Shown here piece after piece: positions 4,530 through 26,001 of a stretch of 34,636 bases of DNA. Numbering within the stretch: the stretch's first letter is position 1; each line of letters opens with the position of its first letter. The stretch covers positions 1-34,636 of the forward strand of contig JAGXTA010000145.1 in the NCBI GenBank assembly GCA_018333535.1. The letters run 5' to 3'. A program made the translations under genes and the position numbers. This DNA is from Deltaproteobacteria bacterium. Its GTDB lineage: Bacteria > Desulfobacterota > BSN033 > UBA1163. The notes under the pieces were generated by a model that was given only the letters and a program-made list of their open reading frames with translations, did not search any database and was not told the origin of the DNA.

Positions 4530-4669
4530 GTCTGTTTATAAACTAACTGTTTCCCAAAAGGTCGTCATTCCGGCGAAAGCCGGAATCCAGTCCTTTCAAT
4601 CCCGCCAAAGGCGGGACTGGATGCCGGATCAGGTCCGGCATGACGGAAAAGGTGCATTTATAAACAGAC
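4530..4669. mobile_element. 140-bp inverted-repeat element (MITE-like) in the ppsA leader
   Basis: Perfect 13-bp terminal inverted repeats, GTCTGTTTATAAA (4530-4542) and TTTATAAACAGAC (4657-4669), enclose a self-complementary body. The left half carries GTCATTCCGGC-GAAA-GCCGGAATCCAG and the right half CTGGATGCCGG...CCGGCATGAC, so each half is a hairpin and the two halves also pair. The body matches the element at 20672-20827. It has no coding capacity and lies between the ppsA promoter candidate and the ppsA start codon. Confidence 0.75.
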
Positions 4670-4731: not shown

Positions 4732-4802
4732 CCGGGAGTAAGATTGATTTTTCAGTTAAATAAATTTAATATGAATGTCGATAAGCTTAAAAGGGAGGAT
4801 TT

Positions 4803-4926
4803 ACCCCGTTAGAAGGTCTACGACCTTTCAGCGGGGAGGATTCACAGGAGGCTTTAAACTCCATGTTCGCTGCAAAAGGAATTTTATCTTAATTCCCGCT
4901 TTAAACAGCGGGTTTTCTAACGGGGT
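4803..4926. mobile_element. ACCCCGTTAGAA inverted-repeat element, copy 1, upstream of ppdK
   Basis: Perfect 12-bp ends, ACCCCGTTAGAA (4803-4814) and TTCTAACGGGGT (4915-4926), bound a 124-bp segment. Inside the right end is the hairpin CCCGCT-TTAAAC-AGCGGG followed by TTTT. A second element with the same ends and the same subterminal hairpin layout lies at 24567-24667. The right end stops eight bases before the ppdK ATG and its GGGGTG probably serves as the ribosome binding site. It could be a non-autonomous transposable element (subterminal hairpins recall IS200/IS605 or REP/RAYT elements) or a structured leader; two copies with shared ends favour a mobile repeat. Confidence 0.65.
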
Positions 4927-4934
4927 GAAAAATC

Positions 4935-10723: not shown

Positions 10724-11896
10724 TTAGGATTGGTCGTCGAACTCCCTTTTTAAAAGTCTGAGTTCACGTCGAAGCTCTGCCTGAAGTTCTCCCTCCGTTG
10801 GCAGGTATAGTTTATATCGACTGGCAAAAATTTTCTTTGCCTGGTCCGGGCCGAGAGTGTAGTGGACAACGGCGTCGTTCTTGTCCGTGCACAGAATGAG
10901 ACCTAATGTTGGGTTATCTCCCTGGGTCCGGCGCTCGCGGTCGTAGTAATTGACGTACAATTGGAGTTGCCCCAAATTCTGGTGGGTAAGTTTGCCGACC
11001 TTGAGATCGATGAGCACGAAGCATTTGAGGATCGTGTGGTAGAATACCAAATCAATGTAGAAGTGGTCACCGTCAAGCGTGATCCGTTCTTGTCGGGAAA
11101 CAAAAGCGAAACCCTTACCCAATTCGAGTAGGAATGCCTGAAGGTTGTTGATCAGGGCCTGCTCCAGGCCGGACTCCACAAGTTTCGGCGATTCGGGCAA
11201 GCCAAGGAACTCCATGACCACCGGGTCTTTGAAAACGTCGGCAGGCCGCTGTATCGCTTGTCCCTTTGTGGCCAGTCGCATCAAACCCTTCTTGTCCTTG
11301 CTCAGGGCCAGGCGTTCATAGAGCAGGCTGTTGATCTGGCGCTCCAGTTCCCGCGCCGACCAATTGTTCTTGACCGCTTCTATTTCGTAAAAAGATCTGG
11401 CCTCGAGTGACTCAACACGGACAAGATGCCGGTACAGGGACCAAGAAAGGTTAGGGTGCAGCAGACCCGGCTGCCAAGATTGGTCACACAGTGTGTGACC
11501 AATTCCGGATTTTAACGGAACTGCGACAGGAAAGTTGTTTACATTGGATAAAGAGGATTGGTCACGCAGTGTGTGACCAATCTCCCTGCTTCTCAATCCC
11601 GGATATGCAAGGAAGAATTGCCGAAAGAGCTTAAGGTTCGTAGCGCTATACCCGGCCCCGTAATCTTGCTGGAGTTTCTCGGACAATTCGGCAATCAGCC
11701 TTTGACCGTATTCGGCTTTTCTACTCCCACGCTGCTCCTCCTCCACAATCTCCCGTCCGATCAGCCAGTTGGCCACAACCTGGGTCGTGTTAACCGACCT
11801 GGCCACATTGGTTCTGGCCGATTCCAGTATCTGTCGGATCCGCCTGTACAACGGCGTCCCCTTCGTTTCCGGCAAACTTGTCGGTTTCTTTCTCAC
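10724..11896 (-). CDS. DUF1016/YhcG-family PD-(D/E)XK nuclease
   Basis: The 390-residue protein is a YhcG/DUF1016 nuclease. The N-terminal part (IRQILESARTNVARSVNTTQVVANWLIGREIVEEEQRG...YGAGYSATNLKLFRQFF) is the family's helical DUF1016_N region. The C-terminal half carries the PD-(D/E)XK core: FAFVSRQERITLDGDHFYIDLVFYH (Asp) followed by CFVLIDLKVGKL (D-x-K). The family is common beside restriction systems, and some members are implicated in defence or DNA processing. Start: GTG at 11896 with GAGGAG eight bases upstream. Odd feature: an in-frame insertion of about 45 residues before LSWSLYRHLVRVE contains two copies of IGHTLxDQS, encoded by near-perfect palindromes 78 bp apart. Confidence 0.9.
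   Translation of the reverse strand: MRKKPTSLPETKGTPLYRRIRQILESARTNVARSVNTTQVVANWLIGREIVEEEQRGSRKAEYGQRLIAELSEKLQQDYGAGYSATNLKLFRQFFLAYPGLRSREIGHTLRDQSSLSNVNNFPVAVPLKSGIGHTLCDQSWQPGLLHPNLSWSLYRHLVRVESLEARSFYEIEAVKNNWSARELERQINSLLYERLALSKDKKGLMRLATKGQAIQRPADVFKDPVVMEFLGLPESPKLVESGLEQALINNLQAFLLELGKGFAFVSRQERITLDGDHFYIDLVFYHTILKCFVLIDLKVGKLTHQNLGQLQLYVNYYDRERRTQGDNPTLGLILCTDKNDAVVHYTLGPDQAKKIFASRYKLYLPTEGELQAELRRELRLLKREFDDQS
11478..11581. repeat. Two direct copies of a 26-bp palindrome inside the DUF1016 gene
   Basis: Copies at 11478-11503 and 11556-11581 each consist of GATTGGTCAC, a short CA-rich centre and GTGTGACCAAT, differing at one central base (A/G). They are 78 bp (26 codons) apart, so frame is kept and each encodes IGHTL(R/C)DQS on the minus strand. 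The palindromes could form hairpins in DNA or mRNA. Confidence 0.8.
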
Positions 11897-20029: not shown

Positions 20030-20656
20030 TTGAAAAAAAAACCGAATTCTGTTCAAAATATGGATAACATAAGCCGAGAATCTGAAAGAAAAGGGCAGAT
20101 ATTAAACTCTGCCATTAAGATCTTTGGAGAAAAAGGCTTCCAAAATGCTACGATTGCCGAAATCGCCAAAGATGCTGGCGTTGGGGATGCTACTATCTAT
20201 GAATATTTTAAAAATAAAGAAGACTTGATGCTGGCAATCCCCGTGGAATTCACCAAAGAACTCATCCCCCAAATCAATGATCATATGATGGGTATTAAGG
20301 GGGCCTTTAATAAACTACGGAAGTTTATCTGGTGGTGGCTTAATTATGTTGAAAAAAACCCCGGATACGGGTCCATTGTCTTACTTGAGTTAAAGACGAG
20401 CAAGACCTATGTATCCACGGAAGCCTATCAGGCGGCCAGGAGCTTTTATCAAATCGTCCTTGACATTATTAAGGAAGGACAGGAGGAAGGGGCGGTCAAG
20501 AAAGAAATTAATCCCTATTTGGCCCGCAGTCTTTGCGTTGGGGCGATGGAACATATCATCATTCGATGGCTATTGAAAGATAGGAAATATCCACTCATCC
20601 AATATGCTGACGAGTTGGCAGATCTTTTGATTGATTCTCTTAAAACCAGAGTTTGA
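20030..20656 (+). CDS. TetR/AcrR-family transcriptional regulator
   Basis: A 198-208-residue TetR-type repressor. The helix-turn-helix is clear: RKGQILNSAIKIFGEKGFQNATIAEIAKDAGVGDATIYEYFKNKEDLML (about residues 20-68). The C-terminal all-helical region would bind the ligand. The upstream start is TTG at 20030; an ATG at 20060 (MDNISRESERKGQ) gives normal family length and may be the true start, though neither has an obvious Shine-Dalgarno sequence. Neighbours are divergent ade and, 248 bases downstream, the Mo-hydroxylase operon. Likely targets are the palindromes at 19876-19894 and 20840-20860. The ligand might be a pathway intermediate such as a CoA thioester (inference). Confidence 0.9.
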   Translation: MKKKPNSVQNMDNISRESERKGQILNSAIKIFGEKGFQNATIAEIAKDAGVGDATIYEYFKNKEDLMLAIPVEFTKELIPQINDHMMGIKGAFNKLRKFIWWWLNYVEKNPGYGSIVLLELKTSKTYVSTEAYQAARSFYQIVLDIIKEGQEEGAVKKEINPYLARSLCVGAMEHIIIRWLLKDRKYPLIQYADELADLLIDSLKTRV

Positions 20657-20671
20657 TATTTCGGATGGAGA

Positions 20672-20827
20672 CAACATTGATGATCCCGTAAAAAGTCGAA
20701 AACTCTTAATGATCGTCATTCCGGCGAAAGCCGGAATCCAGTAATCTCAGACACTTATGAAAACACTGGACACCGGTTCCTGCCGCAGGACCGGTGAGAC
20801 GACTTTTTACGGAACCATCAATGTTGT
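20672..20827. mobile_element. Inverted-repeat element (MITE-like) between tetR and the Mo-hydroxylase operon
   Basis: Long near-perfect ends, CAACATTGATG...CCGTAAAAAGTCG (20672-20698) and CGAC...TTTACGG...ATCAATGTTG (about 20801-20827), enclose a body with GTCATTCCGGC-GAAA-GCCGGAATCCAGT and ACTGG...ACCGGT...ACCGGTGAGACGAC. The body corresponds to that of the element at 4530-4669, but the outermost ends differ. There is no coding capacity. It starts 15 bases after the tetR stop and ends before the operator/promoter candidate at 20840-20878. Confidence 0.7.
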
Positions 20828-20839
20828 TGGCCTCCAAAT

Positions 20840-20878
20840 GAGAAAAAACTTGTTTTTCTCAAACAGTATTATTCTAAT
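20840..20878 (+). promoter_or_regulatory. Promoter with overlapping palindrome for the Mo-hydroxylase operon
   Basis: TTGTTT (20850-20855) and TCTAAT (20873-20878, five of six matches to TATAAT) are separated by 17 bases, about 27 bases upstream of the first ATG. The -35 box lies within a perfect inverted repeat, GAGAAAAA (20840-20847) / TTTTTCTC (20853-20860), which would block polymerase if bound by a repressor. The TetR protein encoded upstream is the obvious candidate. Confidence 0.5.
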
Positions 20879-22236: not shown

Positions 22237-24576
22237 ATGGAAGAGTTATCGTATGTCGGCAAGAGTGTTCCAAGAAAGGATGGCGTGGAGAAGGCAACTG
22301 GAAGAGCCCTTTATACTGTGGATATGGTTCTTCCTGGGATGTTGTGGGGTAAAATATTAAGGAGTCCCTACCCTCATGCCAAAATACTCCGTATTGATGC
22401 TTCCCGCGCAGAGAGACTCCCCGGAGTGAAGGCAGTCATCACAGGGAAGGATACTTTAGGGATCAAGCACGGATTTGTGGAAACTCCTCGATATCCCCCT
22501 GATCAATACCCTTTAGCCATGGATCGGGTCCGCTATATTGGTGAAGAAGTTGCTGCGGTTGCGGCCATCGATGAGTATGTTGCTGAAGAAGCCTTGAATC
22601 TTATCCAGGTCGATTATGAGGAGCTTCCTGCGGTCTTTGATCCTGAGGAGGCGATGAAACCCGAGGCTCCTGAAATCCATCCCAGCCACCCAAAGGTGAA
22701 AGAACCTTACAAGAATATTGGCGGAAAGACGGAATCCGGATGGGGAAACGTTGAGAAAGGGTTTGACGAATCCTACCTCGTCCGCGAGGATCGGTTCGAG
22801 GGGCAGCTAAGAACACATTGTTATATGGAACCCCAGGCCACGCTGGCCAGTTTCGATCTTTCAGGAAAGTTAAATGTTTGGACTTCAAGTCAAGGCCCTT
22901 TCATTAAAAGAGCCAAATTAGCCACGACCTTAGGACTTCCTTTCAGCAACGTTCGTGTTTTGAAAGCCTATGTGGGAGGAGCATACGGAGGGAAGATTGA
23001 CCTCTTCTCCCATGAATTCTGTGCTTCTCTGCTGTCCATCAAGGTCCAAAGGCCGGTGAAAATTGTTTGTACAAGGGAGGAGGTATTTGAGTCTGCCAGA
23101 CACGGCCAACCTATCTTTGTGGAGTTGAAAACGGGCGTCAAAAAAGACGGAACCTTAGTGGCTCAACAAATCAGGGTTGTCAATAATAGCGGCGCTTACC
23201 GTGGAAGCGGGGTAGTAGTTATTTTCCTCTGCTGGGGTTTTGTCATGCTCTGTTATCGAATTCCAAACCTGAAATATAAGGGCTACTCTATCTACACAAA
23301 CAATCCCGTCAGGGCCCCACAAAGGGGACATGGCGCCCCTAATCTTCGATTTGCCGTTGAATCACAGATGGACACGATGGCTGAAGAGTTAGGGATCGAT
23401 CCCGTAGAGATCCGTTTAAAGAATGCTCGACAGAAAGGGGACATTCTTCCCAATGAAGATTCGGTCAGGAACTGCGGTTTAGTCGAATGTATTGAAAGGG
23501 CTGCTGAGGCCACCCGATTTAAAGAAATATATGGGAAGAGGAAATCACAGGAGGGACAGAGGATAAGGAGGGGGATTGGAATGGGGGTGTCTTCTTACTT
23601 CAGCGGTTCCCTCATCTACCCCAACACGTCCGCGGCGATTGTCAAGTTGAATGACGATGGCACTGTATCGCTCCTCACAGGAGCCTTGGACATTGGCCAG
23701 GGGGCTGAGACCATTCTATGCCAAATTGTCGCTGAGGAGCTCGGGGTGTCAATGGATGATATTCGGGTTGTGGCAGCAGACACCGAGACCACTCCTGTGG
23801 ATATCGGCGCCTGGATCAGTGGAGGAGCTTATGTTTCCGGGAATGCTGTTAAGATGGCTGCCTCCGATGCAAGGCGTCAACTTTTTGAAGTGGCTGCGCA
23901 AGAACTTGAAGCCAATCCTGAGGACTTAATTGCAAAGAACCGAGAGATCTCTGTCAAAGGCATCCCAGGACGATCGATCTCTTTTACTCAGGCGGTGGCG
24001 TCAAGTATTTCAAAGCGCCGTGGGAATCCCATTATCGGTCAGGGCCATTTCCGAACAATGAAGGACATGCCAGCTCATCCGAGTCTCGCCACCACAAAAG
24101 GCAGATGGAGTGACAATTATGCCTTCGATGCCCAAGTCGCCGAGGTGGATGTCGATATGGAAACCGGCCAGGTAAAACTTGTGAAAGCGACCACAGCTCA
24201 TGACTGCGGTTTTCCTATTAACCCCTTACTGGTTGAAGGCCAGATTGATGGCCAGGTCTCTATGGCTCAAGGCCATGCCCTCTGGGAGGAAGTTTTGATG
24301 AAAGAAGGCAAAACCCTTACGACCTCTTTTCTCGACTATAAAATTCCCTGTGCTAAGGATCTGGTTGAATCTCACTACATCGACGTCATCACAGAGAGGT
24401 ATGAAAAAGATACTCCTTACCGCACAAAGGAGGTGGGAGAAGGATATGTCTCGGGAATGGTAGCTGCCATTGCCAATGCCGTGTATGATGCAACGGGGGT
24501 GAGAGTAAAAACGTTTCCGATCCTTCCTGAGAAGATACTGATGGGTTTGAAAGAAAAAGGGGATAAACCCCGTTAG
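22237..24576 (+). CDS. Molybdenum hydroxylase catalytic (Mo-binding) subunit
   Basis: The 779-residue protein has the aldehyde oxidase/xanthine dehydrogenase a/b hammerhead domain (VGKSVPRKDGVEKATGRALYTVDM...) followed by the Mo-cofactor domain: MEPQATLA, AYVGGAYGGKID, GALDIGQGAETI and the C-terminal KEVGEGYVSGM, whose Glu is the expected catalytic base. The carbon monoxide dehydrogenase motif AYxCSFR is absent; at the equivalent site is RAPQRGHGAPN, also unlike the usual AFRGFG of xanthine dehydrogenases. It hydroxylates an unknown N-heterocycle, aldehyde or aromatic, probably in the cytoplasm since no signal peptide is visible. GGAGAAG precedes the start. The last codons (CCC CGT TAG) lie in the end of the inverted-repeat element at 24567-24667. 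Confidence 0.93.
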   Translation: MEELSYVGKSVPRKDGVEKATGRALYTVDMVLPGMLWGKILRSPYPHAKILRIDASRAERLPGVKAVITGKDTLGIKHGFVETPRYPPDQYPLAMDRVRYIGEEVAAVAAIDEYVAEEALNLIQVDYEELPAVFDPEEAMKPEAPEIHPSHPKVKEPYKNIGGKTESGWGNVEKGFDESYLVREDRFEGQLRTHCYMEPQATLASFDLSGKLNVWTSSQGPFIKRAKLATTLGLPFSNVRVLKAYVGGAYGGKIDLFSHEFCASLLSIKVQRPVKIVCTREEVFESARHGQPIFVELKTGVKKDGTLVAQQIRVVNNSGAYRGSGVVVIFLCWGFVMLCYRIPNLKYKGYSIYTNNPVRAPQRGHGAPNLRFAVESQMDTMAEELGIDPVEIRLKNARQKGDILPNEDSVRNCGLVECIERAAEATRFKEIYGKRKSQEGQRIRRGIGMGVSSYFSGSLIYPNTSAAIVKLNDDGTVSLLTGALDIGQGAETILCQIVAEELGVSMDDIRVVAADTETTPVDIGAWISGGAYVSGNAVKMAASDARRQLFEVAAQELEANPEDLIAKNREISVKGIPGRSISFTQAVASSISKRRGNPIIGQGHFRTMKDMPAHPSLATTKGRWSDNYAFDAQVAEVDVDMETGQVKLVKATTAHDCGFPINPLLVEGQIDGQVSMAQGHALWEEVLMKEGKTLTTSFLDYKIPCAKDLVESHYIDVITERYEKDTPYRTKEVGEGYVSGMVAAIANAVYDATGVRVKTFPILPEKILMGLKEKGDKPR

Positions 24577-24667
24577 AAAGGATGGGGCTTTTAATCCCGC
24601 CCTCAATAATGAATGAATATTTTCTTTTTACATCCCCGTCGTAGATGGCGGGGCTTTCTAACGGGGT
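24567..24667. mobile_element. ACCCCGTTAGAA inverted-repeat element, copy 2, upstream of the PaaK-like gene
   Basis: Perfect 14-bp ends, ACCCCGTTAGAAAG (24567-24580) and CTTTCTAACGGGGT (24654-24667), bound a 101-bp segment. The outer 12 bases equal those of copy 1 at 4803-4926. Next to the right end is the hairpin CCCCG...CGGGG followed by CTTTC, as in copy 1. Its left end supplies the last two sense codons and the stop of the Mo-subunit gene. Its right end is 14 bases before the ATG of the next gene. The interiors of the two copies differ, which suits an ancient or non-autonomous mobile repeat. Confidence 0.65.
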
Positions 24668-24681
24668 AAATAGAGGGAAAT

Positions 24682-26001
24682 ATGGAAAAGGTCATCATGT
24701 GGAAACCGGAATTGGAGACAATGCCAAGAGATAAACTTTTAGGGTATCAACTTCAGCTATTCAGAAACCAGATGGCCTATGTCTATGAGCGGGCTCCCTT
24801 CTATAGAAAGAAGTTTGATGATGCTGGAATAAAACCTGAACATATTAAGACTTTAGAGGATGTCAGCAGAATTCCTTTCACGGTCAAGGACGAGTTGAGG
24901 CAGAGCCAGGAGAAATCTCCTCCCTTTGGAGACTTCCATTGTATCTCTCCAGCGGAGGGAGTAAGGGTCTTTCAAACTACTGGAACAACGGGAATACCTG
25001 TGCGGTCCTTGTTAAGTAAGAAGGACTGGTTGGAAGTCTACTATGACCAGTTTATGTACTTTATGTATGGGTATGGAATCACCAAGGCTGATATCATATT
25101 TATCCCTTTCAACTATGGACTCTATTTAGCCTGGTGGGGAATCCATTCATCTTTTGAGCAAGGAGGTGTTCTCGTCATCCCGGGTGGGGGACAAAGTTCC
25201 GAAGATCGCATTAAAAATATTCTTGAATGGAAACCGACCGTTGTTTGTGGTACGCCTACTTATATCCTTTTCCTCGGTGAGGTGGCTAAGAAGATGGGCG
25301 TGGATCTCTCAAAGACGGCTGTCCGAATTGTCATTACAGCAGGAGAGCCGGGAGCCCAGGTTCCTTCAACCAAAAAATTGATTGAAACCACCTGGGGGGC
25401 TAAAAATTATGACGACATCGGCTCCACAGAAATTTCCAACTTCGGTTTTGAATGTGTGGCTCAGAAAGGGACTCATGTTATTGAAAGCATGTTTCTCGCT
25501 GAGGTGATCGATCCGAAGACGGGCAAAAATTTGAATCCAGGTGAAGAAGGGGAGTTGGTTCTTACTAACCTTTGCTGTGAATCCATGCCTTTGATCCGAT
25601 GGCGGATGGGCGATGTCGTTAAATTCGATGTGACGAAGTGTGACTGCGGACGGACATTCCTCCGCTTAGAGAGAGGGATCATCGGTCGGGCGGATGATAT
25701 GTTCCAATTTGGCGGAGTCAATATTTTTCCGTCCGCAATTGAGAATTTCGTTCGCGAGACGAAAGAATTCTCAAATGAATATCAAGTCATTGCCCCCAAG
25801 ATGGGATCAGGGAAGCATTTAAGAATTCGCGTCGAACCCTCCTCCCCCTCCCTTTCAAAAGAAGAGATGGATCGAGCGGTGAATGCCTTCAAAGAAATTT
25901 TCAAATTTCGAATTGGGGTCACTCCGGATGTAGAAGTGGTTAAGATCGGCGAGCTTCCCCGATTTGAGGGCAAAGCCAAGCGGGTGATCAAGGAGGCTTG
26001 A
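24682..26001 (+). CDS. Phenylacetate-CoA ligase-family (PaaK-like) acid-CoA ligase
   Basis: The 439-residue adenylate-forming enzyme has PaaK-family length. Features: N-terminal LFRNQMAYVYERAPFYRKKFDDAGI and IPFTVKDELR, the phosphate-binding loop FQTTGTTGIPV (about residues 96-106), YDDIGSTEISNFGFEC, GELVLTNLCCESMPLIRWRMGDV, CDCGRTFLRLERGIIGRADDMFQFGGVNIFPSAIE, and the C-terminal lid with FEGKAKRV, whose lysine closes the active site. It activates an aromatic or related carboxylic acid to its CoA thioester with ATP. Several PaaK paralogues act on acids other than phenylacetate, so the substrate is open. GAGGG lies five bases before the ATG. Confidence 0.92.
   Translation: MEKVIMWKPELETMPRDKLLGYQLQLFRNQMAYVYERAPFYRKKFDDAGIKPEHIKTLEDVSRIPFTVKDELRQSQEKSPPFGDFHCISPAEGVRVFQTTGTTGIPVRSLLSKKDWLEVYYDQFMYFMYGYGITKADIIFIPFNYGLYLAWWGIHSSFEQGGVLVIPGGGQSSEDRIKNILEWKPTVVCGTPTYILFLGEVAKKMGVDLSKTAVRIVITAGEPGAQVPSTKKLIETTWGAKNYDDIGSTEISNFGFECVAQKGTHVIESMFLAEVIDPKTGKNLNPGEEGELVLTNLCCESMPLIRWRMGDVVKFDVTKCDCGRTFLRLERGIIGRADDMFQFGGVNIFPSAIENFVRETKEFSNEYQVIAPKMGSGKHLRIRVEPSSPSLSKEEMDRAVNAFKEIFKFRIGVTPDVEVVKIGELPRFEGKAKRVIKEA

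Follow-up and report, generated by a model that had tools for sequence, protein, structure and literature searches.

The window, i.e. the whole analysed stretch of 34,636 nucleotides from a Deltaproteobacteria bacterium, carries a gene for a Mo-cofactor-binding subunit, with the FAD and [2Fe-2S] subunits encoded upstream according to Pfam, followed by a gene for a PaaK-like AMP-binding protein. Two copies of a short element with inverted ends are present, one at the junction of these two genes (copy 2) and the other before a pyruvate phosphate dikinase gene (copy 1). The features are collected in Table 1.

Table 1. Coordinates of the two copies, their parts and the neighbouring genes
Feature	Position	Strand	Basis or remark
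Copy 1, 122 bp, before the pyruvate phosphate dikinase gene	4804..4925	+	Between GGGAGG (4793-4798) and ATG (4935)
GGGGTGA, Shine-Dalgarno-like, from element end plus flank	4922..4928	+	6 bases before ATG; putative use by the ribosome
Mo-cofactor-binding subunit gene	22237..24576	+	MoCoBD_1/2, Ald_Xan_dh_C (Pfam); C terminus ..GDK to ..GDKPR
Target duplication TAAA, left copy	24564..24567	.	TAAA single in the empty site GGGGATAAATAGAAGG
Copy 2, non-autonomous mobile element, 99 bp	24568..24666	+	Exact orthologous site empty in G007 (L156) and L301
Left terminal inverted repeat CCCCGTTAGAAAG	24568..24580	+	Ends common to the family
Element-derived TAG that closes the Mo-subunit gene	24574..24576	+	G007 has AAA TAG instead
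GC hairpin CCCCGTC/GGCGGGG ('R end'), adjoining the right end, start-proximal	24634..24653	+	RNA fold, orientation bias
Right terminal inverted repeat	24654..24666	-	Perfect inverse of the left end
Target duplication TAAA, right copy	24667..24670	.	Comparison with the empty site
Relic of the native TAG stop, now non-coding	24671..24673	+	Alignment with the empty site
PaaK-like AMP-binding gene	24682..26001	+	AMP-binding, AMP-binding_C_2 (Pfam); own AGAGGG before ATG still 3' of the element

Copy 2 is bounded by perfect 14-base inverted repeats, ACCCCGTTAGAAAG at 24567-24580 and CTTTCTAACGGGGT at 24654-24667, as a preliminary description of this DNA had reported. The same description had correctly read that the left end provides the CGT TAG closing the Mo-subunit gene, whose reading frame ends CCC CGT TAG and whose product ends ...KGDKPR*, and that the right end (24667) lies 14 bases before the ATG of the PaaK-like gene. 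The predicted RNA fold of copy 2, with its GC hairpin, reaches -43.7 kcal/mol (z -5.4). Copy 1, which had been described as the same element, belongs to the same family, but its length class and internal sequence differ. Its perfect ends, ACCCCGTTAGA, comprise 11 bases, and no direct duplication is formed by the flanking TTTA and TGAA. The orthologous site in G006 is without copy 1, the match being short of base-exact.

Other repeats are also found in the window. Directly 5' of copy 1, at 4530-4669, an imperfect inverted repeat with GTCTGTTTATAAAC-like arms surrounds a CATTCCGGCGAAAGCCGGAATCC hairpin, while a compact inverted AGTCTGTTTATAAA pair of 131 bp is present elsewhere (L095, 2858-2988); given this compact pair, these repeats probably represent another small mobile family. 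A second copy of the CATTCCGGCGAAAGCCGGAATCC repeat is surrounded by 57-bp arms that are 75% complementary (20642-20856 and 20708-20749). Near-identical palindromes, GATTGGTCACACAGTGTGTGACCAAT, lie 78 bp apart at 11478-11503 and 11556-11581 and resemble paired regulator sites, and TTCAAATGTCAAA-type repeats flank the gene at 929-1876 on both sides (792-2009).

Copy 2 and its empty site

The closest orthologue of the PaaK-like gene, 98% identical, belongs to the congener G007, in which the site is exactly empty (GATAAATAG). The same empty site is present in Thermodesulfobacteriota bacterium Yes70-18 (L301), whose Mo subunit is 97% identical. In particular, the G007 junction reads GGGGATAAATAGAAGGGAAATATG, whereas the window has GGGGATAAA, then 99 bases of the form CCCC...GGGG, and then TAAATAGAGGGAAATATG. 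The event was thus a 99-bp insertion accompanied by a duplication of TAAA. In Deltaproteobacteria bacterium RBG_16_49_23 the gene ends with GATTCATAG and is element-free up to an assembly gap. By this comparison the element proper is 24568-24666, with 13-bp ends, and the outer A and T of the 14-base repeats are part of the duplicated TAAA; the inverted ends of the element as originally delimited hold, while its 101 bp are trimmed to 99.

At the level of the gene, copy 2 entered the Mo-subunit frame precisely after its last codon and ahead of its stop. The end AAA TAG has become AAA CCC CGT TAG, with the gain of Pro-Arg, the native TAG has been replaced by CCCCGTTAG, and the distance from the stop to the PaaK-like start has grown from 9 to 105 bases. 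Alignment with insertion-free relatives, proposed earlier as a check, thus shows that copy 2 is an insertion, in that both an exact empty site and a target duplication are found. A second exact empty site is provided by a 33-bp copy (L093) compared with G004, and empty sites with local differences are found for L090, L087, L102, L109, L115, L118 and L096.

A MITE-like family

The exact 11-mer ACCCCGTTAGA occurs 51 times in the 4.39-Mb genome (31 forward, 20 reverse) and its reversed control not once. With one mismatch allowed the counts are 110 and 81, respectively, so that only the exact motif is clearly enriched. The 13-mer ACCCCGTTAGAAA is present in 23 of the 79 genomes searched, with 46 copies in the window's own genome and 33 to 183 in seven of nine congeners (zero in G005 and G008); it is further found in six of seven other family members and, at no more than five copies each, in 9 of 62 more distant genomes. 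A 168-bp element of the same type, with a TTCA duplication, lies in two contigs of a viral collection (L399, 2599-2766; L405, 2520-2687), and the family may thus extend beyond the clade. In these contigs a nested element with related ends, CCCCGTTACAAA, is seen at the 3' end of a serine-recombinase-like ORF.

Pairs in which both ends have at most one mismatch gave 65 elements from stretches of the window's genome G000 (21) and of G002 (16), G003 (22) and G004 (6), the latter three sets of stretches being chosen mostly where two listed ends paired. The shortest has 28 bp and the longest 338 bp, and the lengths cluster at 33, 40, 61, 68 and 95-103 bp. The family has the ends CCCCGTTAGAAA, 4-bp duplications and the target TTYAC/GTRAA. 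Indeed, a perfect 4-bp direct duplication outside CCCC...GGGG is found in 34 of the 65 (shuffled pairing: mean 15.6, maximum 26 in 10,000), and the oriented target among these 34 is T34 T34 T30 A34 C27. A perfect direct duplication is absent in the other 31. Perfectly inverted flanks, such as TTTA/TAAA, occur in 6 of the 65 and near-inverted ones in others, including copy 1; several elements have the flanks TTTA/TGAA or TTCA/TAAA, a state present at L096 in both G000 and G003. Inverted flanks are not explained by a simple 4-bp duplication and may derive from palindrome-templated repair or from recombination between copies. With terminal inverted repeats, short length, no transposase of its own, and empty sites and target duplications that are exact for copy 2 and either perfect or imperfect across the 65 elements as above, the family is MITE-like.

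Once inserted, the elements evolve in place. At a junction of putative nusG-rplK-like genes, one insertion is common to G000, G003 and G004, with its ends unchanged and its middle diverged, while the element is degenerate in G009 and absent in G007. At L118 a long copy in G006 corresponds to copies with 58-bp internal deletions in G000 and G002; short forms can thus be deletion products, and the notion of the 33-bp copies as the actual mobile unit was set aside. For L109, G000 and G003 have the same 103 bases in the element although the flanks differ. As a separate observation, two copies of about 140 bp with similar flanks form direct repeats around a gene pair that is presumably hicA/hicB-like (L094, 2950-4150, contig 46 of G000), as if a toxin-antitoxin segment had entered with a duplication.

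Gene junctions, hairpin orientation and reading frames

Gene calls were made with a simple caller (coding fraction 0.79, some genes missed). Of the 65 elements, 45 lie between tandem, 8 between divergent and 4 between convergent genes; a further 7 are within ORFs, and 1 is at the edge of its stretch. Non-random placement at gene starts had been suspected, and tabulation of the elements of the four genomes against start codons does reveal a bias: a start lies within 30 bp in 28 of 61 cases, against 12.7% of 220 intergenic TTTAC/GTAAA sites in the same stretches. Stops are, however, equally favoured (25 of 53 within 20 bp, against 7.9% of such sites), and tight gene junctions fit best. When tandem gaps of up to 400 bp are considered with the element removed, which excludes 4 of 43 single-element gaps, 12 of 39 insertions fall in gaps of at most 30 bp, which account for 2.1% of the bases in all tandem gaps considered and for 1.9% of their target motifs. 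With the orthologous duplicate L225 dropped and a 15-bp margin into genes, the figures are 11 of 38 against 9.1% expected (p 0.0004); a 30-bp margin weakens the excess (14.2% expected, p 0.014). Within longer tandem gaps no significant non-uniformity of position was detected (KS p 0.13, n 29). The bias is thus towards tight gene junctions, with gene ends as favoured as starts. The target preference that had also been suspected is borne out by TTYAC, but the motif alone is insufficient to explain the junction bias.

Orientation was scored in 69 elements, the 65 and another four whose ends have diverged further. In 24 of them a C-rich hairpin arm follows one end and not the other, and in the tandem setting this hairpin-bearing end is directed with transcription in 17 of 19. 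A common orientation relative to the gene, claimed earlier for both copies of the window, thus finds support in the one-hairpin elements, but copy 1 itself is unscorable by the hairpin rule. On the hairpin side the flank is TRAA in 21 of 24. Similarly, of the 27 tandem copies that have a start within 30 bp, 24 show TRAA on the gene side, i.e. GGGGTRAA, against a background in which 62% of such motifs in the 30 bases before element-free starts are TRAA. GGGGTRA before a start resembles a Shine-Dalgarno sequence and might be used by ribosomes; when the copy lies 5-9 bases from the start, it reads as the nearest long G run.

The family also enters reading frames. An upstream sense gene runs into 32 of the ends; of these, 17 stop in the duplication, 10 read into the element and 5 are in frame 0, of which 4 finish ..PR* as in the window and 1 stops earlier. 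Seven of the 65 copies lie inside ORFs (L096 3002-3096, L224, L226, L230, L236, L237, L246), including MutL, Ppx/GppA, LPG_synthase_C, a zinc alcohol dehydrogenase and a TPP/ferredoxin oxidoreductase. All seven are translated in one frame, (N/H)PVR(N/K)S...SNGVK, and have a length that, with 4 added, is divisible by 3, against 17 of the 58 others; both regularities are partly forced, since a stop in the left arm closes the two remaining frames and only ORFs spanning the element were counted. Two further observations lend independent support to in-frame insertion. The G007 orthologue of L096 is insert-free and its reading frame continues. The Pfam matches to Ppx-GppA and LPG_synthase_C are each split in two, the best stretch ending at the insert. 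No match to the peptide NPVRNSS... was found among plasmids or phages, and a literature search on it gave nothing relevant.

These features bear on the possibility, raised in the preliminary description, of a selected leader function, in which the element would be retained because it acts on the downstream gene, whether as a terminator, an RNA switch or a translational coupler. The orientation of the hairpin end, the strong folds (z -5.4 and -6.1), the unchanged ends at the nusG-rplK-like junction and the L109 element without a difference between differing flanks would all fit such a role. On the other hand, the sites are polymorphic, with close relatives element-free, the ends are lost in G009, and end conservation could equally come from palindrome-templated repair or from selection for mobility. 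In addition, no Rfam family was found in the window, and terminator and promoter scans were near background. We therefore regard retention as a regulatory leader as possible but unlikely.

Mobilisation and relation to known systems

A REPIN origin, in which a RAYT (Y1 tyrosine transposase) would have spread paired REP sequences in inverted order, with an end tag and a hairpin in each, would account for the inverted doublets and for the hairpins beside conserved ends, and the genome does hold 25 Y1_Tnp matches. However, none of these 25 loci has a family head within 1.5 kb, even with 2 mismatches allowed, or a flanking end pair. Neither IS200/IS605-type enzymes nor REPINs are known to make target duplications, whereas 4-bp direct duplications and exact empty sites are present here, and this origin was rejected as very improbable. 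As to ordinary intergenic DNA with chance ends, the outcome that the preliminary description had set against mobility, or a misjoin at a repeat, the draft assemblies have many contigs and the inverted-flank cases could be misjoins, but 51 exact ends against none in the control, exact empty sites and occupied orthologous sites common to several assemblies leave it a negligible probability, and for copy 2 the exact empty site refutes it.

In the search for the mobiliser, no flanking end pair was found at 25 PF13701 (IS1380-type) loci in the family or at 21 PF01609 (DDE_Tnp_1) loci in five genomes, and both were rejected as mobiliser; PF13612 (DDE_Tnp_1_3) gave 3 matches. The fully listed ends of G001, G011, G012, G013, G015 and G016 contain no inward pair of transposon length. 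Among loci numbered below 300, seven long inward pairs (0.45-4 kb) occur, five of which join ends that have nearer partners, while the other two (L101 and L147) have one unpartnered end each. In this non-exhaustive survey of draft genomes, no autonomous relative with the same ends came to light, whether beside members of three Pfam families or in the form of a clean inward pair of greater length.

Taken as a whole, the observations are best explained by a mobile element that inserted into TAAA, with a preference for junctions, an inferred transposase and nearly harmless arms, a reading that we hold to be highly probable. Copy 2 entered the TAAA with which the Mo-subunit gene closes, and the four bases were duplicated; a transposase acting in trans would cut and join with a 4-base stagger. 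Junctions would be favoured in part by the target, as GTRAA holds TAA/TGA stops and is similar to the A-rich sequence that precedes starts, and in part by the element being nearly harmless there, since every frame running into the left arm either meets a stop immediately (TRA in the duplication, or TAG) or remains open, and the right arm together with the duplication restores GGGGTRA, which is like a ribosome site. Copies entered in frame 2 whose length becomes a multiple of 3 once 4 is added could persist in proteins as extra peptides. More tentatively, and with more doubt than confidence on our part, the family may be a mobile gene-junction module, with ends shaped to enter operons and even proteins almost harmlessly by means of upstream-side stops, a transcription-oriented hairpin and, on the downstream side, a GGGGTRA like a ribosome site; if so, it would re-tune the translation coupling of neighbouring genes genus-wide.

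The family offers a natural, statistically testable bacterial example of a MITE whose ends fit gene boundaries, and its transposase is a findable target. Near relatives differ in which sites are occupied, and exact empty sites exist among them, so that the effects of insertion on operons are measurable. A full-text literature search (MITEs with a stop codon, ribosome site or target duplication; the end sequence; the peptide), with most subscription papers outside its scope, recognised the family nowhere from titles and the beginnings of abstracts, and a P. gingivalis paper matching the end sequence proved to be an oligonucleotide coincidence.

Bacterial MITEs such as Chunjie of Geobacter uraniireducens and MITEAba12 are short and non-coding, with terminal inverted repeats, direct repeats, variable size and a mostly intergenic location, Chunjie having inserted in an operon with copies of 178-235 bp (PMC10969869, PMC6382973). 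The present family shares these habits and differs from such descriptions in its ends, target and sizes; here, no mobilising IS was found, and junction and orientation bias were measured. REPINs are likewise described as inverted doublets with hairpins in many copies (PMC3116915), from which the family differs in its target duplications and in the lack of a linked RAYT. The bcr1 and similar repeats of Bacillus cereus, 100-400 bp long, are linked to TTTAT in an account that suggests a mechanism like site-specific recombination (PMC6542083); by description, TTTAT recalls the TTTAC found here, in another phylum. An intergenic bias with occasional in-frame fusion is known for bacterial MITEs and is strongest in Rickettsia palindromic elements (RPEs; PMC10969869, PMC2229807). 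The latter are palindromes of about 100-150 bp with 12-bp inverted ends, which occupy intergenic sites and also, in frame, the interior of conserved proteins, their target duplication being marked '?' in the review (PMC2229807). Likened by description, the present elements are similarly palindromic with in-frame copies in protein genes, one of the seven having an empty orthologue, and differ in belonging to another clade, in lying mostly at gene junctions and in their visible target duplications, thus extending RPE-like in-frame insertion to a lineage with relatives titled Deltaproteobacteria or Thermodesulfobacteriota.
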